DNA from: Nitrospirota bacterium
Lineage (GTDB): Bacteria; Nitrospirota; JACRHJ01
Length of the DNA: 64,000 nt
Assembly: GCA_021784575.1 (NCBI GenBank)
Contig: JAJYHX010000002.1
Span: 1-64,000 of the forward strand
Reading direction: 5' to 3'
Under the pieces are notes generated by a model. That model was not told the DNA's origin and ran no database searches. It saw only the letters and a program-made list of their open reading frames with translations. Position 1 is the stretch's first letter. Each line of letters starts with the position of its first letter. Positions 5,036 to 10,604 of the stretch are shown here, piece by piece. The position numbers and the translations under genes were made by a program.

Positions 5036-6235
5036 ATGAAAGAACTAAAAAATTATACCGTCCGCGGTTTCAGGGCCGGCGCGGTGGAGGCGGCCATCAA
5101 GAAGCCGGGGCGGCTGGACATGTCGCTTATCTGCTCCGATGTCCCGGCTGTCCCCGCGGCGGTATTCACGAAGAACAGCGTGAAGGCCGCGCCGGTGCTC
5201 CTCGACATGGAGGCGGCGAAGGGCGGCCATGTCCGGGCGATAGTCGCAAACAGCGGGAACGCGAACGCATGCAACGGCGTCCGGGGGATGAAGGACGCGC
5301 TCAGGACCGCGCACCTCATGGGCGAGGTATTGGGCGTCAATACCTCGGACATATTCGTTGCGTCCACGGGCGTCATAGGCGCGCCGCTGCCGATGGAGAG
5401 AATCTCGGCAGGCATAAAATTGCTTCCCGGCGCGCTTAAAGATGACGGCCTTCCCGATGCCGCGCGCGGGATTATGACGACGGACACGTTCCCGAAGATT
5501 TACGGCGTGTCGGAGAGGATCGGCGGGAAGGAAGTCCGCATCGCGGGCATCGCCAAAGGCTCCGGGATGATTAACCCGAACATGGCCACTATGCTTTCGT
5601 TTGTCATCACGGACGCGGCGGTGGAGAAGCGCGCTCTCCAGGCGGCGCTGAAGGCGGGCGTGGACGATTCCTTCAACTGCGTTACCGTGGACGGCGACAC
5701 CTCGACGAACGACACGCTAATCGTCCTCGCCAACGGCATGGCGGGAAATAAAAAAATAACCACAACCAGCGCGGAATACGGACAGTTTAAAAAAACGCTC
5801 GGCGCGGTATTGCTCGCGCTTGCGAAGATGGTTGCGAAAGACGGCGAGGGGGCGACAAAGCTCGTTGAAGTGATGGTGGAGGGCGCAAAAAATCCGGCTG
5901 AGGCGAAGCTGGCCGCGAAGGCAGTCGCAAACTCTCCGCTTGTAAAGACCGCGCTATTCGCCGAGGACGCGAACTGGGGCCGCATCGCCTGCGCGGCGGG
6001 CTATTCCGGCGCGGAGACGGGTGCGGACAAATTGGAGATATGGTTCGACCGTGTCTGCATGGTTCGCGGCGGCGTGGGGCTTGGTCCGAAGGCCGAGGCG
6101 AGGGCGTCGGAGGTTCTGAAGAAGAAGGAATATAAAATTATCGTCAAACTCGGCGCAGGCGATGCCTCCGCGCGCGTATTCACGACGGACTTGAGCTACG
6201 AATACGTTAAAATTAATGCGGGATATAGGAGTTGA
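5036..6235 (+). CDS. argJ: Glutamate N-acetyltransferase / N-acetylglutamate synthase
   Basis: ArgJ transfers the acetyl group of N-acetylornithine back to glutamate, closing the cyclic arginine pathway; some members also use acetyl-CoA. The 399-residue precursor has the self-cleavage site PNMATMLSFV, where the chain breaks before Thr185, the nucleophile of the N-terminal-hydrolase-like fold. The oxyanion-hole block VASTGVIGAPLPM (108-120) and the GDTSTNDT segment are also present. The start follows GTGAGGAGC. It forms an arginine pair with argC; other arg genes are not in the window. Confidence 0.96.
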   Translation: MKELKNYTVRGFRAGAVEAAIKKPGRLDMSLICSDVPAVPAAVFTKNSVKAAPVLLDMEAAKGGHVRAIVANSGNANACNGVRGMKDALRTAHLMGEVLGVNTSDIFVASTGVIGAPLPMERISAGIKLLPGALKDDGLPDAARGIMTTDTFPKIYGVSERIGGKEVRIAGIAKGSGMINPNMATMLSFVITDAAVEKRALQAALKAGVDDSFNCVTVDGDTSTNDTLIVLANGMAGNKKITTTSAEYGQFKKTLGAVLLALAKMVAKDGEGATKLVEVMVEGAKNPAEAKLAAKAVANSPLVKTALFAEDANWGRIACAAGYSGAETGADKLEIWFDRVCMVRGGVGLGPKAEARASEVLKKKEYKIIVKLGAGDASARVFTTDLSYEYVKINAGYRS

Positions 6236-6248
6236 AAAGGAGGAATAA

Positions 6249-6542
6249 ATGGACGCCCATGAACAATGTAGATATAGCATAACCTGTAAGACAGACCATC
6301 TTGCAATAGTTCATTGCCTTCGCGCCCTGTGCCAGCACAATAATAAGAATGTTCCAAAACAAATTGGCTGGGGTGGTAGCGGAGAGAAAGAATGGAGAGA
6401 CAATAATTACTGTATTACTTTGCGGTTTGCATTGCCAAAAGAACGGGAAACATTTATCAGCGACGCTAATAGATTTTTTGTCCAAAACTCGTGGCATGAA
6501 ATTAGCCGTTCAGATAATGATCCGGCTAAGCCTCGGCGATAA
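6249..6542 (+). CDS. Small protein of unknown function (97 aa)
   Basis: A frame of 97 codons starts 13 nt after argJ behind a very strong AAAAGGAGGAATAA ribosome site, the main reason to call it real. The protein is mixed polar (IGWGGSGEKEWRDNNYCITLRF in the middle) with no signal peptide and three cysteines in the N-terminal third. Predicted alternation suggests a small alpha/beta fold; I recognise no family. Base composition is lower in GC than argJ. A minus-strand frame over the same bases lacks a comparable ribosome site. Confidence 0.6.
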   Translation: MDAHEQCRYSITCKTDHLAIVHCLRALCQHNNKNVPKQIGWGGSGEKEWRDNNYCITLRFALPKERETFISDANRFFVQNSWHEISRSDNDPAKPRR

Positions 6543-6588
6543 TGAAAGAAAACCACGATTCTTTTAAAATATGTTGTAAAATAAATAA

Positions 6589-6828
6589 TTGAACAAGCGC
6601 ACGGAAAACGAGAAAAAGTTCCCTGAATGGGAAGAGACCTCTGAAGGCCGCAGATATTATTTAACCGTCAAGGGCCGCTACAGATGGACTGCCCGGTATG
6701 TTAAAGAGGTAGACAAAAGCGAGACTACTTTAAAGTTCTATCAGGAAATTTACGATAGCAACGGGCTTTTAGTGGAAATACATAATAAGTATCCGTTGGA
6801 TGAAGGCCACAAGAAAGTCGGAGGCTGA
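6589..6828 (+). CDS. Small conserved-looking protein, first of a pair
   Basis: The 79-residue product reads FPEWEETSEGRRYYLTVKGR near the start, then YRWTARYVKEVD, QEIYDSNGLLVEIHNKYPLD and a C-terminal GHKKVGG. I recall similar short proteins of this FPEWEE...EIHxKYP...GHxK pattern in uncultured Gram-negative genomes, always uncharacterised; this is memory, not a search. The fold looks all-beta. The start is TTG 6589 without a clear ribosome site, so the 5' end is uncertain. It is followed immediately by the partner gene at 6830, suggesting a two-gene unit. Confidence 0.6.
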   Translation: MNKRTENEKKFPEWEETSEGRRYYLTVKGRYRWTARYVKEVDKSETTLKFYQEIYDSNGLLVEIHNKYPLDEGHKKVGG

Positions 6829-6829
6829 C

Positions 6830-7093
6830 ATGGAACTTACGAAAAAAGACGTGGCGGAGGCCATAATCAAATATACAAACCATGAGACGAGCCTGGCCGA
6901 ACTCGTCGACTGGGCCGAGAAGGCCATGATGGAAGCCAACTTCGAGACGGCCAACCATGATTTGATAAGGGATATAGTTGGGAGACTGGGTCTCGCCGAC
7001 GTCCGGGAATTCGGTCTTTCATGGGACGACTGCTATGGATTTCTAAACAGGCTTGGGTATAAGGTCGAAGTAAAGGCAAGCCTGGCCAGCTAA
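6830..7093 (+). CDS. Small helical protein, second of the pair
   Basis: The 87-residue product is predicted helical: MELTKKDVAEAIIKYTNHET, then SLAELVDWAEKAMMEANFE, then RLGLADVREFGLSWDDCYGF and LNRLGYKVEV. The ATG at 6830 follows CGGAGG at the end of the upstream gene and begins one base after its stop codon. The pair organisation (small beta protein then small helical protein, tightly coupled) resembles toxin-antitoxin layouts, but no catalytic motif is visible and the function is unknown. An alternative upstream start at 6800 lies inside the first gene and is less likely. Confidence 0.65.
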   Translation: MELTKKDVAEAIIKYTNHETSLAELVDWAEKAMMEANFETANHDLIRDIVGRLGLADVREFGLSWDDCYGFLNRLGYKVEVKASLAS

Positions 7094-7107: not shown

Positions 7108-7773
7108 TTGACCACACAGGAATTCCTCGAAATATTCCCCGCGTTTCGGAAGATGCCGGGGGGCGTGGTAGAGAGGATACTCTCCGCCGCGTGGCGAAAG
7201 AAAATCCCGGCGGGGACGTACGTCTATTCCGAGGGTGACTACTGCCAGGCGTTCACGTTCCTCATCTCCGGGGAAGTCCGGGTATTCAAGATGGAAGAGA
7301 CGGGGCGCGAGATAACGCTCTACGAGCTCGGGAGGGGCGACTCATGCATCATAAACGCCTCCTGCATCCTCTCCGCCGTACCGACCCCGGCCAACGCGAT
7401 GACGACTGTCGAGTGCGACGCGCTGCTTCTGTCGGCGGCGGATTTCAAGGCCCTGACGGAAGAGTTCATAGAGGTGCGGGAATACGTCTTCAAGGTGCTC
7501 TCGGAGAACCTCGCAAACGTGATGACGCTCGTGGAAGAGATCGCGTTCAAGCATATCGACGAGAGGCTTGTCGAATACCTTGAGGAGAAATCCGAACAGG
7601 GGAAAGTCTCCGCCACTCACCAGAAAATAGCCGCCGACCTCGGCACGTCGAGGGAGGTTATAAGCCGCCTACTGAAGGACATGGAGCGAAAGGGCCGGGT
7701 AGCGCTCTCAAGAAACCTCGTGAAGCTCATGGATGTGACAGATGTCACAGACGCCAAAAGGCGTACCGGGTAA
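7108..7773 (+). CDS. Crp/Fnr-family transcriptional regulator
   Basis: The 221-residue product has an N-terminal cyclic-nucleotide-binding-like beta barrel (about 10-120; GTYVYSEGDYCQAFTFLISGE), a long dimer helix (about 125-155) and a C-terminal winged helix with the recognition helix TSREVISRLLKDMERKG (about 185-200). The Fnr-type N-terminal cysteine cluster is absent, so it is not a classic oxygen sensor; Cys residues at about 46, 75 and 81 could serve redox or haem sensing. The start is TTG 7108 after TTAAGG. It precedes a DUF2892 protein, a common companion of such regulators. Confidence 0.85.
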   Translation: MTTQEFLEIFPAFRKMPGGVVERILSAAWRKKIPAGTYVYSEGDYCQAFTFLISGEVRVFKMEETGREITLYELGRGDSCIINASCILSAVPTPANAMTTVECDALLLSAADFKALTEEFIEVREYVFKVLSENLANVMTLVEEIAFKHIDERLVEYLEEKSEQGKVSATHQKIAADLGTSREVISRLLKDMERKGRVALSRNLVKLMDVTDVTDAKRRTG

Positions 7774-7874: not shown

Positions 7875-8060
7875 ATGAAGAAAAATATTGGCGGAATCGA
7901 GAGGTTTCTGAGGGTTGTGATTGGTCTTGGCATAATCTCGCTCGCGTTTGTCGGGCCGAAGTCTCCTTTGGCATACCTGGGCGCCGTCCCTCTACTGACC
8001 GGCCTTATCGGCTGGTGCCCGCCCTATGCCATTTTCGGCATATCCACGTGCCGGAAGTGA
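7875..8060 (+). CDS. DUF2892 (YgaP-type) inner membrane protein
   Basis: The 61-residue product starts KKNIGGIERFLRVVIGLGII, the hallmark of DUF2892: an N-terminal NxGxxDR-like turn followed by two transmembrane helices (about 12-30 and 33-50) and an LIGWCPPYAIFGISTC motif with conserved Cys-Pro-Pro. Members are often linked to rhodanese and sulfur or redox genes. A GAGGTG ribosome site lies 6 nt before the ATG. It is about 100 nt downstream of the Crp/Fnr gene, in the same direction. Confidence 0.85.
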   Translation: MKKNIGGIERFLRVVIGLGIISLAFVGPKSPLAYLGAVPLLTGLIGWCPPYAIFGISTCRK

Positions 8061-8154: not shown

Positions 8155-8183
8155 TTGACAAAAGACGGGCCGATGTGCATAAT
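8155..8183 (+). promoter_or_regulatory. Strong sigma-70-type promoter of the J-domain/NifX unit
   Basis: TTGACA at 8155-8160 and CATAAT at 8178-8183 are 17 nt apart. Transcription should begin near 8190, inside the palindrome at 8189-8206. Confidence 0.75.
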
Positions 8184-8188
8184 CAACT

Positions 8189-8206
8189 CTATAATTACAA
8201 TTATAG
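8189..8206. promoter_or_regulatory. Perfect palindromic operator candidate at the start site
   Basis: CTATAATTACAATTATAG has two 8-bp perfect arms around a central AC. It lies over the predicted transcription start, where a bound repressor would block the promoter at 8155-8183. The arm text resembles PerR/Fur-type boxes (TTATAAT...ATTATAA), but the spacing differs and the regulator is not known. Confidence 0.55.
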
Positions 8207-8218
8207 GATAACCTGTTT

Positions 8219-8539
8219 ATGAGTTACGAGAGACTCAGGAAGGCCGTGGAAGTTTTCGGACTTTTCGAGGGGATTTCCATCAAAGACATCAAAAAGAGGC
8301 ACCGGGAACTCGCCAAATTATACCACCCGGATTCCGGAAGCGGGAACGCCGAGCTGATGAAGGAGGTAAACCTCGCATACGGTGTCCTGCTCGGATATTG
8401 CGAGTCCTACAGGTATCTGTTTTCCGAGGATGAATATTACAGGCAGCATCCCGATGAGCTTATAAGTAAGAGATTTATGGACGACCCAATCTGGGGGAAC
8501 GGAGGTGTGGACGCAAACGACAGCCTTGGCCATTTCTGA
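8219..8539 (+). CDS. Short J-domain protein
   Basis: The 106-residue product has a J-domain-like first half: helix II ISIKDIKKRHRELAKLYHPDSG carries the HPD motif (about residues 37-39) that stimulates DnaK ATPase in the family, and a following helix NAELMKEVNLAYGVLLGYCE. There is no G/F region or zinc finger; the second half (YLFSEDEYYRQHPDELISKR) is unique. It heads a three-gene unit with a secreted protein and a NifX-like protein, so it may be a dedicated DnaK co-factor for metal or cofactor handling. That role is inference. Confidence 0.8.
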   Translation: MSYERLRKAVEVFGLFEGISIKDIKKRHRELAKLYHPDSGSGNAELMKEVNLAYGVLLGYCESYRYLFSEDEYYRQHPDELISKRFMDDPIWGNGGVDANDSLGHF

Positions 8540-8553
8540 AAAAGGGGGCGTTT

Positions 8554-9000
8554 ATGAAAACTATATTTTCGCTTTCCCTGGCAATAGTGTCGCTGGCCGT
8601 TGCGGGTGTTGCGCTTGCCGCGCCGATGATGGGCGGCTGGGGCATGAACAGCCGATACGGCAGGTTGTATGACACGCATACGGTTGAAACGGTTTCCGGT
8701 GAAGTATTGAGGATAGACAGAATAAAGCCCATGAGAGGCATGAGCTACGGAATCCATATCGCGCTAAAGACGGACAAGGGCGAAATCCCTGTGCATCTGG
8801 GGCCTGCATGGTATATCAATCGCCAGAGCCCGGCTATCAAGCCGGGCGACAGGCTGGAGATTAAAGGGTCAAAGGTGATGTTACAGGGGGAACCTGTGAT
8901 CATTGCGGCGGAAGTGAGGAAGGGAGACGAGGTTTTGAGGCTTAGAGACGATAATGGCTATCCAATGTGGGCAGGATGGCGGAGAGGACGACTAAACTGA
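8554..9000 (+). CDS. Secreted small OB-fold-like protein, unknown function
   Basis: A cleavable signal peptide covers residues 1 to about 22 (cut after ALA-APMM). The mature part starts with a Gly/Met-rich stretch MMGGWGMNSRYGR, then a beta-rich domain: VETVSGEVLRIDRIKPMRGM, IHIALKTDKGEIPVHLGPAW and IKPGDRLEIKGSKVMLQGEP. The pattern (modification of a ligand, 'GDxLEIxGSxV') suggests a small OB-like barrel. I recall similar periplasmic proteins in metal-reducing bacteria, without known function. It lies 14 nt after the J-domain gene with GGGGGC as possible ribosome site, and 17 nt before the NifX-like gene. Confidence 0.75.
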   Translation: MKTIFSLSLAIVSLAVAGVALAAPMMGGWGMNSRYGRLYDTHTVETVSGEVLRIDRIKPMRGMSYGIHIALKTDKGEIPVHLGPAWYINRQSPAIKPGDRLEIKGSKVMLQGEPVIIAAEVRKGDEVLRLRDDNGYPMWAGWRRGRLN

Positions 9001-9017
9001 CCGAGAAAGGAGAGGAT

Positions 9018-9374
9018 ATGAACATTGCGGTATCCACGGGCGACGGCCAGACAATCTGCGGCCATCTGGGGAAGTGCAGGGACTTCATAATCTACGAAAT
9101 CGAGGGGCGGCGGATAAAAAACAAGCGGCTCTTAAGCGCCGGCGCGGCCTGCCCGGGCCACGGCAAGGGAGAAGAGCACGCGCACAACATCAGCCCCTTC
9201 GAGAACTGTCAGGCCGTTATTACCCAGGGCATGGGCCAGGGGATGATGGACGGACTGCTGAATGCCGGGATTCAGCCGGTAATCACAAGGGAGTCCGACC
9301 CGGACATCGCCGTTAACCTATATCTTGGCGGCAGGCTCGCCGGGACAGACGTATCGACCTGTTCCTGCTCGTAA
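9018..9374 (+). CDS. NifX/NifB-C-like dinitrogenase iron-molybdenum cofactor family protein
   Basis: The 118-residue product is a PF02579-type (NifX/NafY/MTH1175) domain: MNIAVSTGDGQTICGHLGKC at the start, a FIIYEIEGRRI strand, the AVITQGMGQGMMDGLLNAGI block, and a Cys-rich tail CSCS. These proteins bind iron-sulfur or FeMo-cofactor intermediates in the family; stand-alone copies occur widely outside nitrogen fixation. Extra Cys and His residues (CPGHGKGEEHAH, about 52-63) could bind metal. Start ATG 9018 follows AAAGGAGAGG. A strong terminator follows at 9412. Confidence 0.85.
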   Translation: MNIAVSTGDGQTICGHLGKCRDFIIYEIEGRRIKNKRLLSAGAACPGHGKGEEHAHNISPFENCQAVITQGMGQGMMDGLLNAGIQPVITRESDPDIAVNLYLGGRLAGTDVSTCSCS

Positions 9375-9411
9375 CCCAATAAAAATACATGCGGGACGAA
9401 GAATATTTCAG

Positions 9412-9437
9412 GGCCGGGATTTTCCCGGCCTTTTTTT
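9412..9437 (+). terminator. Rho-independent terminator after the NifX-like gene
   Basis: GGCCGGGA pairs with TCCCGGCC across a TTT loop, followed by seven T residues (stem 9412-9430, T-run 9431-9437). It separates the upstream unit from the hrcA promoter that begins two bases later. Confidence 0.9.
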
Positions 9438-9471: not shown

Positions 9472-9498
9472 TTAGCACTCTACGGGATTGAGTGCTAA
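9472..9498. promoter_or_regulatory. CIRCE operator (HrcA binding site)
   Basis: TTAGCACTC at 9472-9480 and GAGTGCTAA at 9490-9498 are separated by nine bases, an exact match to the CIRCE consensus. It sits at the predicted start of transcription, so HrcA should repress its own operon here, with release on heat shock. No second copy is seen before grpE, dnaK or dnaJ. Confidence 0.97.
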
Positions 9499-9569: not shown

Positions 9570-10604
9570 ATGGACTTAAGCGAGAGAAGCAGGGAGATCC
9601 TGCGCGCCATTATCCAGAGCTATATCTCCACGGCAGAGCCGGTCGGCTCCAGGACGGTTACGAAACGCTATAACCTCGGCATCTCCCCCGCCACGGTCCG
9701 TAATATAATGTCCGACCTGGAAGATCTCGGCTTCCTTGCCCAGCCGCACACGTCGGCAGGCAGGGTCCCGACGGACAAGGCGTACCGCTTTTATATCGAC
9801 ACAATGCTCGATGTGAAGAGCCTGCCGCGCCAGCAGGAGGAGGAGATACTCAACTATCCCCTGCGCAGGGGAGATTTTCACCAGCTCATGCAGGAGACGA
9901 CAAAGCTCCTCTCCGCGCTTTCGCACTATACCGGGATAGTCATGGCCCCGAAACCCGCCGAGACGGTATACAGGCACATGGAATTTGTCCGCCTCACCGG
10001 CGGGCGCGCACTTGCCATATTCGTCTCGAACGCGGGGATAGTCCATAACCGGATGATTGTCTTCGACGAGGACCTGACGCAGAAGGAGCTTGAGAGAATA
10101 TCGGCGTTTCTTAACCATGAGATGGCCGGAAAAACCCTGCGCGACATGCGCAGCCGGGTGTTTCAGCTTATGGAGGACGATAAAAACAAGTATACCCGCC
10201 TGCTGATGAAGTTTATGAAGCTCTGGCAGGACGCCTCATACGAAGGCGAAGAGGCGGGCGAGGCCGAGCTTTTCGTCGGCGGCCTCTCCGAGATGTTCAA
10301 CATCCCGGACTTCAGGGACTACGAGAAGATGAAGGAGCTTTTTATAGCCTTTGAAGAAAAGCACAAGCTCTTGAAGCTTCTTGACCTCGCGATGGAAGCG
10401 GAAGGTGTGCAGGTGTATATCGGCTCGGAAAACAAGTACTTCGAGATGCAGGGGATAAGCCTTGTCGTCGCAAGCTACAGGGGCGAGGGAAATGTCGTCG
10501 GGACGCTTGGCGTCATAGGGCCGTCCCGTATGCCGTACAACACCGTCATACCTCTTGTGGACTGCACGGCCAGGGTGCTGGGAAGGCTGATAAGCGAGAG
10601 GTAG
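9570..10604 (+). CDS. hrcA: Heat-inducible transcription repressor HrcA
   Basis: HrcA dimers bind CIRCE and repress chaperone genes; GroEL assists their folding in the known systems. The 344-residue product has the N-terminal winged helix (about 1-75, ISPATVRNIMSDLEDLGFLA then QPHTSAGRVPTDKAYRFYID), a central inserted domain, and the C-terminal GAF-like region ending ASYRGEGNVVGTLGVIGPSR plus MPYNTVIPLVD. Length is standard. Start ATG 9570 is used; a GGAGGGGGAGG-type site lies upstream. The leader starts in the CIRCE element, giving direct autoregulation. Confidence 0.97.
   Translation: MDLSERSREILRAIIQSYISTAEPVGSRTVTKRYNLGISPATVRNIMSDLEDLGFLAQPHTSAGRVPTDKAYRFYIDTMLDVKSLPRQQEEEILNYPLRRGDFHQLMQETTKLLSALSHYTGIVMAPKPAETVYRHMEFVRLTGGRALAIFVSNAGIVHNRMIVFDEDLTQKELERISAFLNHEMAGKTLRDMRSRVFQLMEDDKNKYTRLLMKFMKLWQDASYEGEEAGEAELFVGGLSEMFNIPDFRDYEKMKELFIAFEEKHKLLKLLDLAMEAEGVQVYIGSENKYFEMQGISLVVASYRGEGNVVGTLGVIGPSRMPYNTVIPLVDCTARVLGRLISER

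Follow-up and report, generated by a model that had tools for sequence, protein, structure and literature searches.

The question raised by this locus is why a very short J-domain protein, an exported protein and a NifX-like protein should be encoded together, with control elements of their own, immediately upstream of a heat-shock operon. The window that we have analysed is a stretch of 64,000 nucleotides from a Nitrospirota genome (G000, 2.1 Mb, 97% complete). Of the named entries in the genome collection, those closest to it are metagenome-assembled Nitrospirae bacteria. The first-pass annotation had described a promoter with a palindrome, three tightly spaced genes and a terminator, and on re-reading the sequence all of these elements are found in place:

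7108-7773, + strand: Crp/Fnr-family regulator gene, upstream neighbour (PF00027 and PF13545, both above cut-offs)
7875-8060, + strand: YgaP-like transmembrane protein gene, upstream neighbour (PF11127, 80 bits)
8155-8183, + strand: sigma-70-type promoter, TTGACA-17-CATAAT, 11/12 consensus positions
8189-8206, unstranded: operator-like palindrome, CTATAATT-AC-AATTATAG, a perfect 8-2-8 dyad
8219-8539, + strand: mini J-domain protein gene, 106 aa
8554-9000, + strand: exported OB-fold protein gene, 148 aa
9018-9374, + strand: NifX-like protein gene, 118 aa, PF02579
9410-9432, + strand: intrinsic terminator, 10-pair stem and T run
9472-9498, unstranded: CIRCE of the next operon, a perfect TTAGCACTC-N9-GAGTGCTAA, 0 expected
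9570-10604: hrcA, followed by grpE and dnaK (next operon)

A separately controlled operon

The three genes are co-directional, with gaps of 14 bp between the J and OB genes and 17 bp between the OB and NifX-like genes. Because the mini-operon has both a terminator and its own control, and the hrcA operon a CIRCE of its own, the two are separate units; the CIRCE at 9472-9498 marks the boundary of the module and lies outside it. The YgaP-like gene is perhaps unrelated to the operon.

The -35 element (TTGACA, 8155-8160) and the -10 element (CATAAT, 8178-8183) are separated by a 17 nt spacer, and the palindrome follows just 3' of the -10, over the expected start site, a placement that it shares with CIRCE. 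When the intergenic stretch was shuffled 2000 times with its dinucleotides preserved, any perfect 8-bp dyad with a gap of 0-4 turned up in only 8 of the shuffled sequences, and it is unlikely that one would arise by chance in so short a region. When the genus is compared across its four genomes with an assembled locus (that of the window included), all six positions of both the -35 and the -10 are invariant, as are 17 of the 18 bases of the palindrome, and this is to be set against 49 of 94 positions in the upstream intergenic DNA and 1 of 5 between the -10 and the palindrome. The sole change in the palindrome is at its centre, so that the symmetry of the arms is intact in all four genomes. 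The terminator can be recognised by eye in three of the four.

The exact palindrome is present in a single copy in each of these genomes, which gives it the look of a private operator. Matches with up to three mismatches are no commoner than those of a reversed-pattern control in six genomes, and this makes a wide regulon unlikely. By position only, the Crp/Fnr protein encoded upstream is a candidate for the regulator. We have also considered that the palindrome might function as a 5'-terminal mRNA hairpin, stabilising the transcript or tuning its translation, rather than as a DNA operator. It would sit at the extreme 5' end of the transcript and can form a 7-bp stem with a 4-base loop; however, the fold is weak (-3.7 kcal/mol, z -0.67) and the arms are invariant in sequence, without compensatory changes, leaving the hairpin a distinctly unlikely explanation. 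The promoter spacer itself (8161-8177) is invariant at 14 of 17 positions in the four genomes, more than expected of a free spacer, which hints at a second contact there.

Conservation of the three-gene order

Whether the gene order and the palindrome are conserved in relatives had been put forward as the test of the module, and the outcome is divided. Within the genus both are present in 4/4 genomes with an assembled locus, the three relatives (G001, G004 and G002) having the order J-OB-NifX-hrcA-grpE-dnaK exactly as in the window; in G001 and G002, where the contig extends far enough, the Crp/Fnr and YgaP-like genes stand upstream too. Outside the genus the trio was not found in the Nitrospirota genome collection, the sister genus included, from which both the J and OB genes are missing. 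The fifth genome of the genus (G003, 88% complete) gave no match to the J, OB, NifX or hrcA genes; as hrcA is absent too, the locus has probably not been assembled, and we have set this genome aside as a counter-example. All three genes are under purifying selection, with dN/dS values of 0.11-0.25 (J), 0.08-0.17 (OB) and 0.08-0.12 (NifX-like).

These data bear on a simple explanation for the trio, in which one lineage placed a J gene in front of an OB-NifX pair that it already had, so that the genes share only a promoter and no common pathway. Confinement of the trio to one genus, with a sister genus that has neither J nor OB, is what such an assembly would produce, yet order, spacing and palindrome have been kept among the four loci at a synonymous divergence (dS) of about 0.2-0.9, and we consider an assembly of this kind to be quite improbable.

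The three proteins and their known relatives

The proteins are what they had been taken to be, namely a J-domain protein, a NifX-like PF02579 protein and a protein in which a predicted OB barrel comes after an N-terminus resembling a signal peptide. The first of these matches Pfam DnaJ over residues 11-57 with 33.1 bits (cut-off 27.8), with the HPD motif at 36-38, and because it has a J domain without G/F, zinc-finger or beta-barrel regions, ending at 106 aa, it falls into class C. Its conserved C-terminal tail, YRFSFSEEE...DPIWGN, is of low confidence in the structure model. A related tail is found in five further Nitrospirota genomes, and in the four full copies that were compared it reads YRFSFS.E...DPIWGN or a near variant; judged by sequence, the protein thus belongs to a small subfamily whose conserved tail reaches beyond the genus. 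A search of plasmids with the J-protein returned partial matches only, none covering 80% of the query.

Among the closest known systems is AtcJ, from the atcJABC operon of Shewanella oneidensis (PMC6715715). It too is a small class C J-protein, extended only briefly at its C-terminus, and it too is encoded at the head of an operon in which none of the remaining genes specifies a chaperone. There are precedents for a short J-protein that shares an operon with its partner: AtcJ binds AtcC through a 21-aa tail, and HscB serves IscU (PMC6715715). The present protein differs from AtcJ in its tail and in its partner families, with OB and NifX-like genes downstream in place of atcABC, and it is not AtcJ by the NCBIfam model NF050028 (E 0.036, 14.6 bits against a cut-off of 150). 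Neither is it HscB: the TIGR00714 model gives nothing above its cut-off in G000 and does not even list the J gene; the C-terminal domain typical of HscB is lacking as well. A literature search gave no paper with both 'small J-domain protein' and NifX.

The NifX-like protein matches PF02579 (Nitro_FeMo-Co) with 63 bits, well above the gathering cut-off of 26.3, and is a member of the NifX/NafY/ORP family that includes MrpORP, its best NCBIfam match; in MrpORP the PF02579 domain binds Fe-S clusters (PMC6345978). It differs from the known members in standing alone, in having extra cysteines, in lying outside a nif cluster and in scoring below the NifX and MrpORP equivalog cut-offs. Six cysteines (C14, C20, C45, C64, C115 and C117) are all invariant among six subfamily members, two of which are paralogues in the sister genus, and this is suggestive of metal-cluster binding. 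The protein is not NifX proper (TIGR02663, 29.2 against 112 bits), and service to a nitrogenase is rejected for the window genome, where no NifK match was found, though G001 and G005, the latter of the sister genus, do carry NifK. Since it is the only PF02579 protein found in G000, where neither NifK nor an HscB above cut-off was found, it is neither redundant nor in the service of nitrogenase there.

Relatives of the NifX-like protein in the sister genus adjoin a LemA or an endonuclease III gene and not a J gene. The closest of them (G005 contig 49, locus L151, 7438-8383) overlaps the end of the LemA gene or directly follows it. In magnetosome islands MamQ is LemA-like, MamS is OB-like and MamB/M are CDF proteins.

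The second protein of the operon has an N-terminus that reads by eye as a signal peptide, belongs to no Pfam family and finds nothing significant in the PDB by sequence. Its AlphaFold model is a barrel, with pLDDT mostly 84-94 from residue 71, and the top Foldseek matches are OB domains (ExoVII, LysRS, Stn1, RPA; E from 1e-4, TM about 0.4-0.45 over the query). The predicted model thus has the five-stranded barrel of an OB fold, and the proposal of an OB-like protein is borne out at the level of structure prediction. MamS of the magnetosome islands has the same layout, an N-terminal hydrophobic segment and then a predicted OB fold (PMC3905215), and the OB protein gives a weak match to the MamS profile over residues 45-140; at 19.6 bits against a cut-off of 200 (NF040991) it is not MamS itself.

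Metal links and a possible mechanism

Of the 396 Nitrospirota genomes sampled, 105, about a quarter, encode a member of the OB family, and its neighbours provide the main clue to what the operon might do. In 51 OB-bearing genomes outside the genus we counted partners on the same strand within 2 kb of the OB gene. A PF02579 domain is found in 7 of them (six genera, one genome, G353, having a shortened OB copy on its contig 110) where 0.2 pairs are expected, and a CDF cation-efflux gene in 6 where 0.3 are expected; the expected counts presuppose that genes are placed at random, and related genera are only partly independent of one another, so that the P values are indicative and not exact, though their direction is clear. 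In two genomes (G125 and G226) the OB gene adjoins one for a CDF exporter that carries a PF02579 domain as a fusion, and here the OB-NifX pairing of the window recurs with the same OB family, the differences being the membrane exporter fusion and the lack of a J-protein. On a Stanieria plasmid an OB homologue is located in a copper-resistance cluster, among multicopper oxidase and heavy-metal ATPase genes. By these gene neighbourhoods the OB-NifX pairing is real and metal-linked, with the J gene a genus-specific addition to it. The metal part of the metal or redox module originally suggested gains support in consequence, as the OB gene stands beside NifX-like domains and CDF genes far above chance; the redox part is conjectural. 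At the OB loci L057-L082 and L095-L106, outside the genus, this J and this NifX subfamily are both lacking. The phylum-wide link between OB, NifX-like and CDF genes is a first functional clue to this unnamed periplasmic OB family.

Several of these loci show further variation. The two fusions, with PF02579 C-terminal to the CDF portion, lie at 5824-7041 (L169, G125 contig 7) and 800-2077 (L168, G226 contig 99), both with an adjoining OB gene, and a third CDF-PF02579 fusion is encoded at 12793-14058 of L167 (G018 contig 36). The NifX-like gene of G197 and of G353 comes after a gene that reads by eye as DUF134-like. A PF02579 protein of G187 (contig 42, L171, 5857-6246), encoded two genes upstream of two tandem OB genes, has an apparent signal peptide and is for that reason probably periplasmic.

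Our preferred reading, offered tentatively and with somewhat less than even confidence, is that the operon forms a small module for handling a metal or cofactor, controlled by a repressor-type operator of its own, in which the J-protein links a putative cluster carrier to DnaK. It draws on the anatomy of the operon, its conservation in four genomes, the purifying selection and the OB-NifX-CDF link. Upon a metal or redox signal a regulator would leave the palindrome; the six-cysteine NifX-like protein would then bind and carry a metal or an Fe-S cluster in the cytoplasm, and the mini J-protein, via its conserved tail, would present this carrier, or its apo-form, to DnaK, as HscB does with IscU, and DnaK could then help in loading or unloading it. 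Likeness to AtcJ and HscB makes it plausible that the tail brings the carrier to DnaK. The exported OB protein may handle the same metal, or protect against it, in the periplasm. Under this explanation the operon would have in common with the HscB-IscU-HscA (Isc) system a J-protein devoted to a scaffold or carrier of clusters, the carrier here being a PF02579 protein and not IscU and the Hsp70 being DnaK.

The strongest argument against a dedicated J-NifX pair comes from gene neighbourhoods: relatives of the J gene are not found beside NifX genes, nor sister-genus NifX relatives beside J. In other families the J relatives (L090-L094) have no adjoining NifX-like genes; they lie in unrelated-looking neighbourhoods, either following a dxs-like gene or close to genes for ArsR, rhodanese, DsbD-like, VTT, DsrE or methyltransferase proteins. 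It also counts against the preferred reading that the J tail is of low confidence in the model and that the OB protein, being exported, could meet DnaK only before export. A metal- or sulfide-stress operon in which the products are co-regulated and do not bind one another, the J-protein being an extra activator of DnaK for damaged proteins while OB and NifX-like proteins act on the metal, would account for J relatives in thiol/metal-type clusters (ArsR, rhodanese, DsbD-like, DsrE) lacking NifX, and for an OB-NifX link that exists without J. It sits less well with so specific and strongly conserved a J tail, as the DPIWGN ending suggests a particular client over general help, and we give co-regulation without contact only a little less weight than the preferred reading.

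That client might conceivably be the OB precursor, kept export-competent by the J-protein and DnaK, given that the OB gene is directly downstream of J and its product is exported. However, some quarter of the genomes sampled in the phylum have the OB family with no such J gene alongside, and we consider the OB protein to be a very improbable client.

In terms of known systems we class the locus as an operon of a short J-protein, built round a putative cluster carrier. Should the preferred reading prove true it would offer a compact example, outside the Isc system, of a metal-cluster carrier with a dedicated chaperone. A bolder version, in which J-proteins with DPIWGN tails form a new class of dedicated co-chaperones, wired here to a six-cysteine PF02579 carrier and a periplasmic OB protein for Hsp70-assisted cluster delivery independent of Isc and nitrogenase, we think unlikely.

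Two minor observations concern the relatives. Two of the J loci among L090-L094 lie downstream of genes for ArsR, rhodanese, DsbD/thioredoxin and a VTT membrane protein. Contig 49 of G001 (L155, 4307-8700) encodes NifK, a large NifE/NifN-like protein and a NifX of its own in a nif-type cluster, whereas the window genome shows no NifK, and diazotrophy seems to be patchy within the genus.
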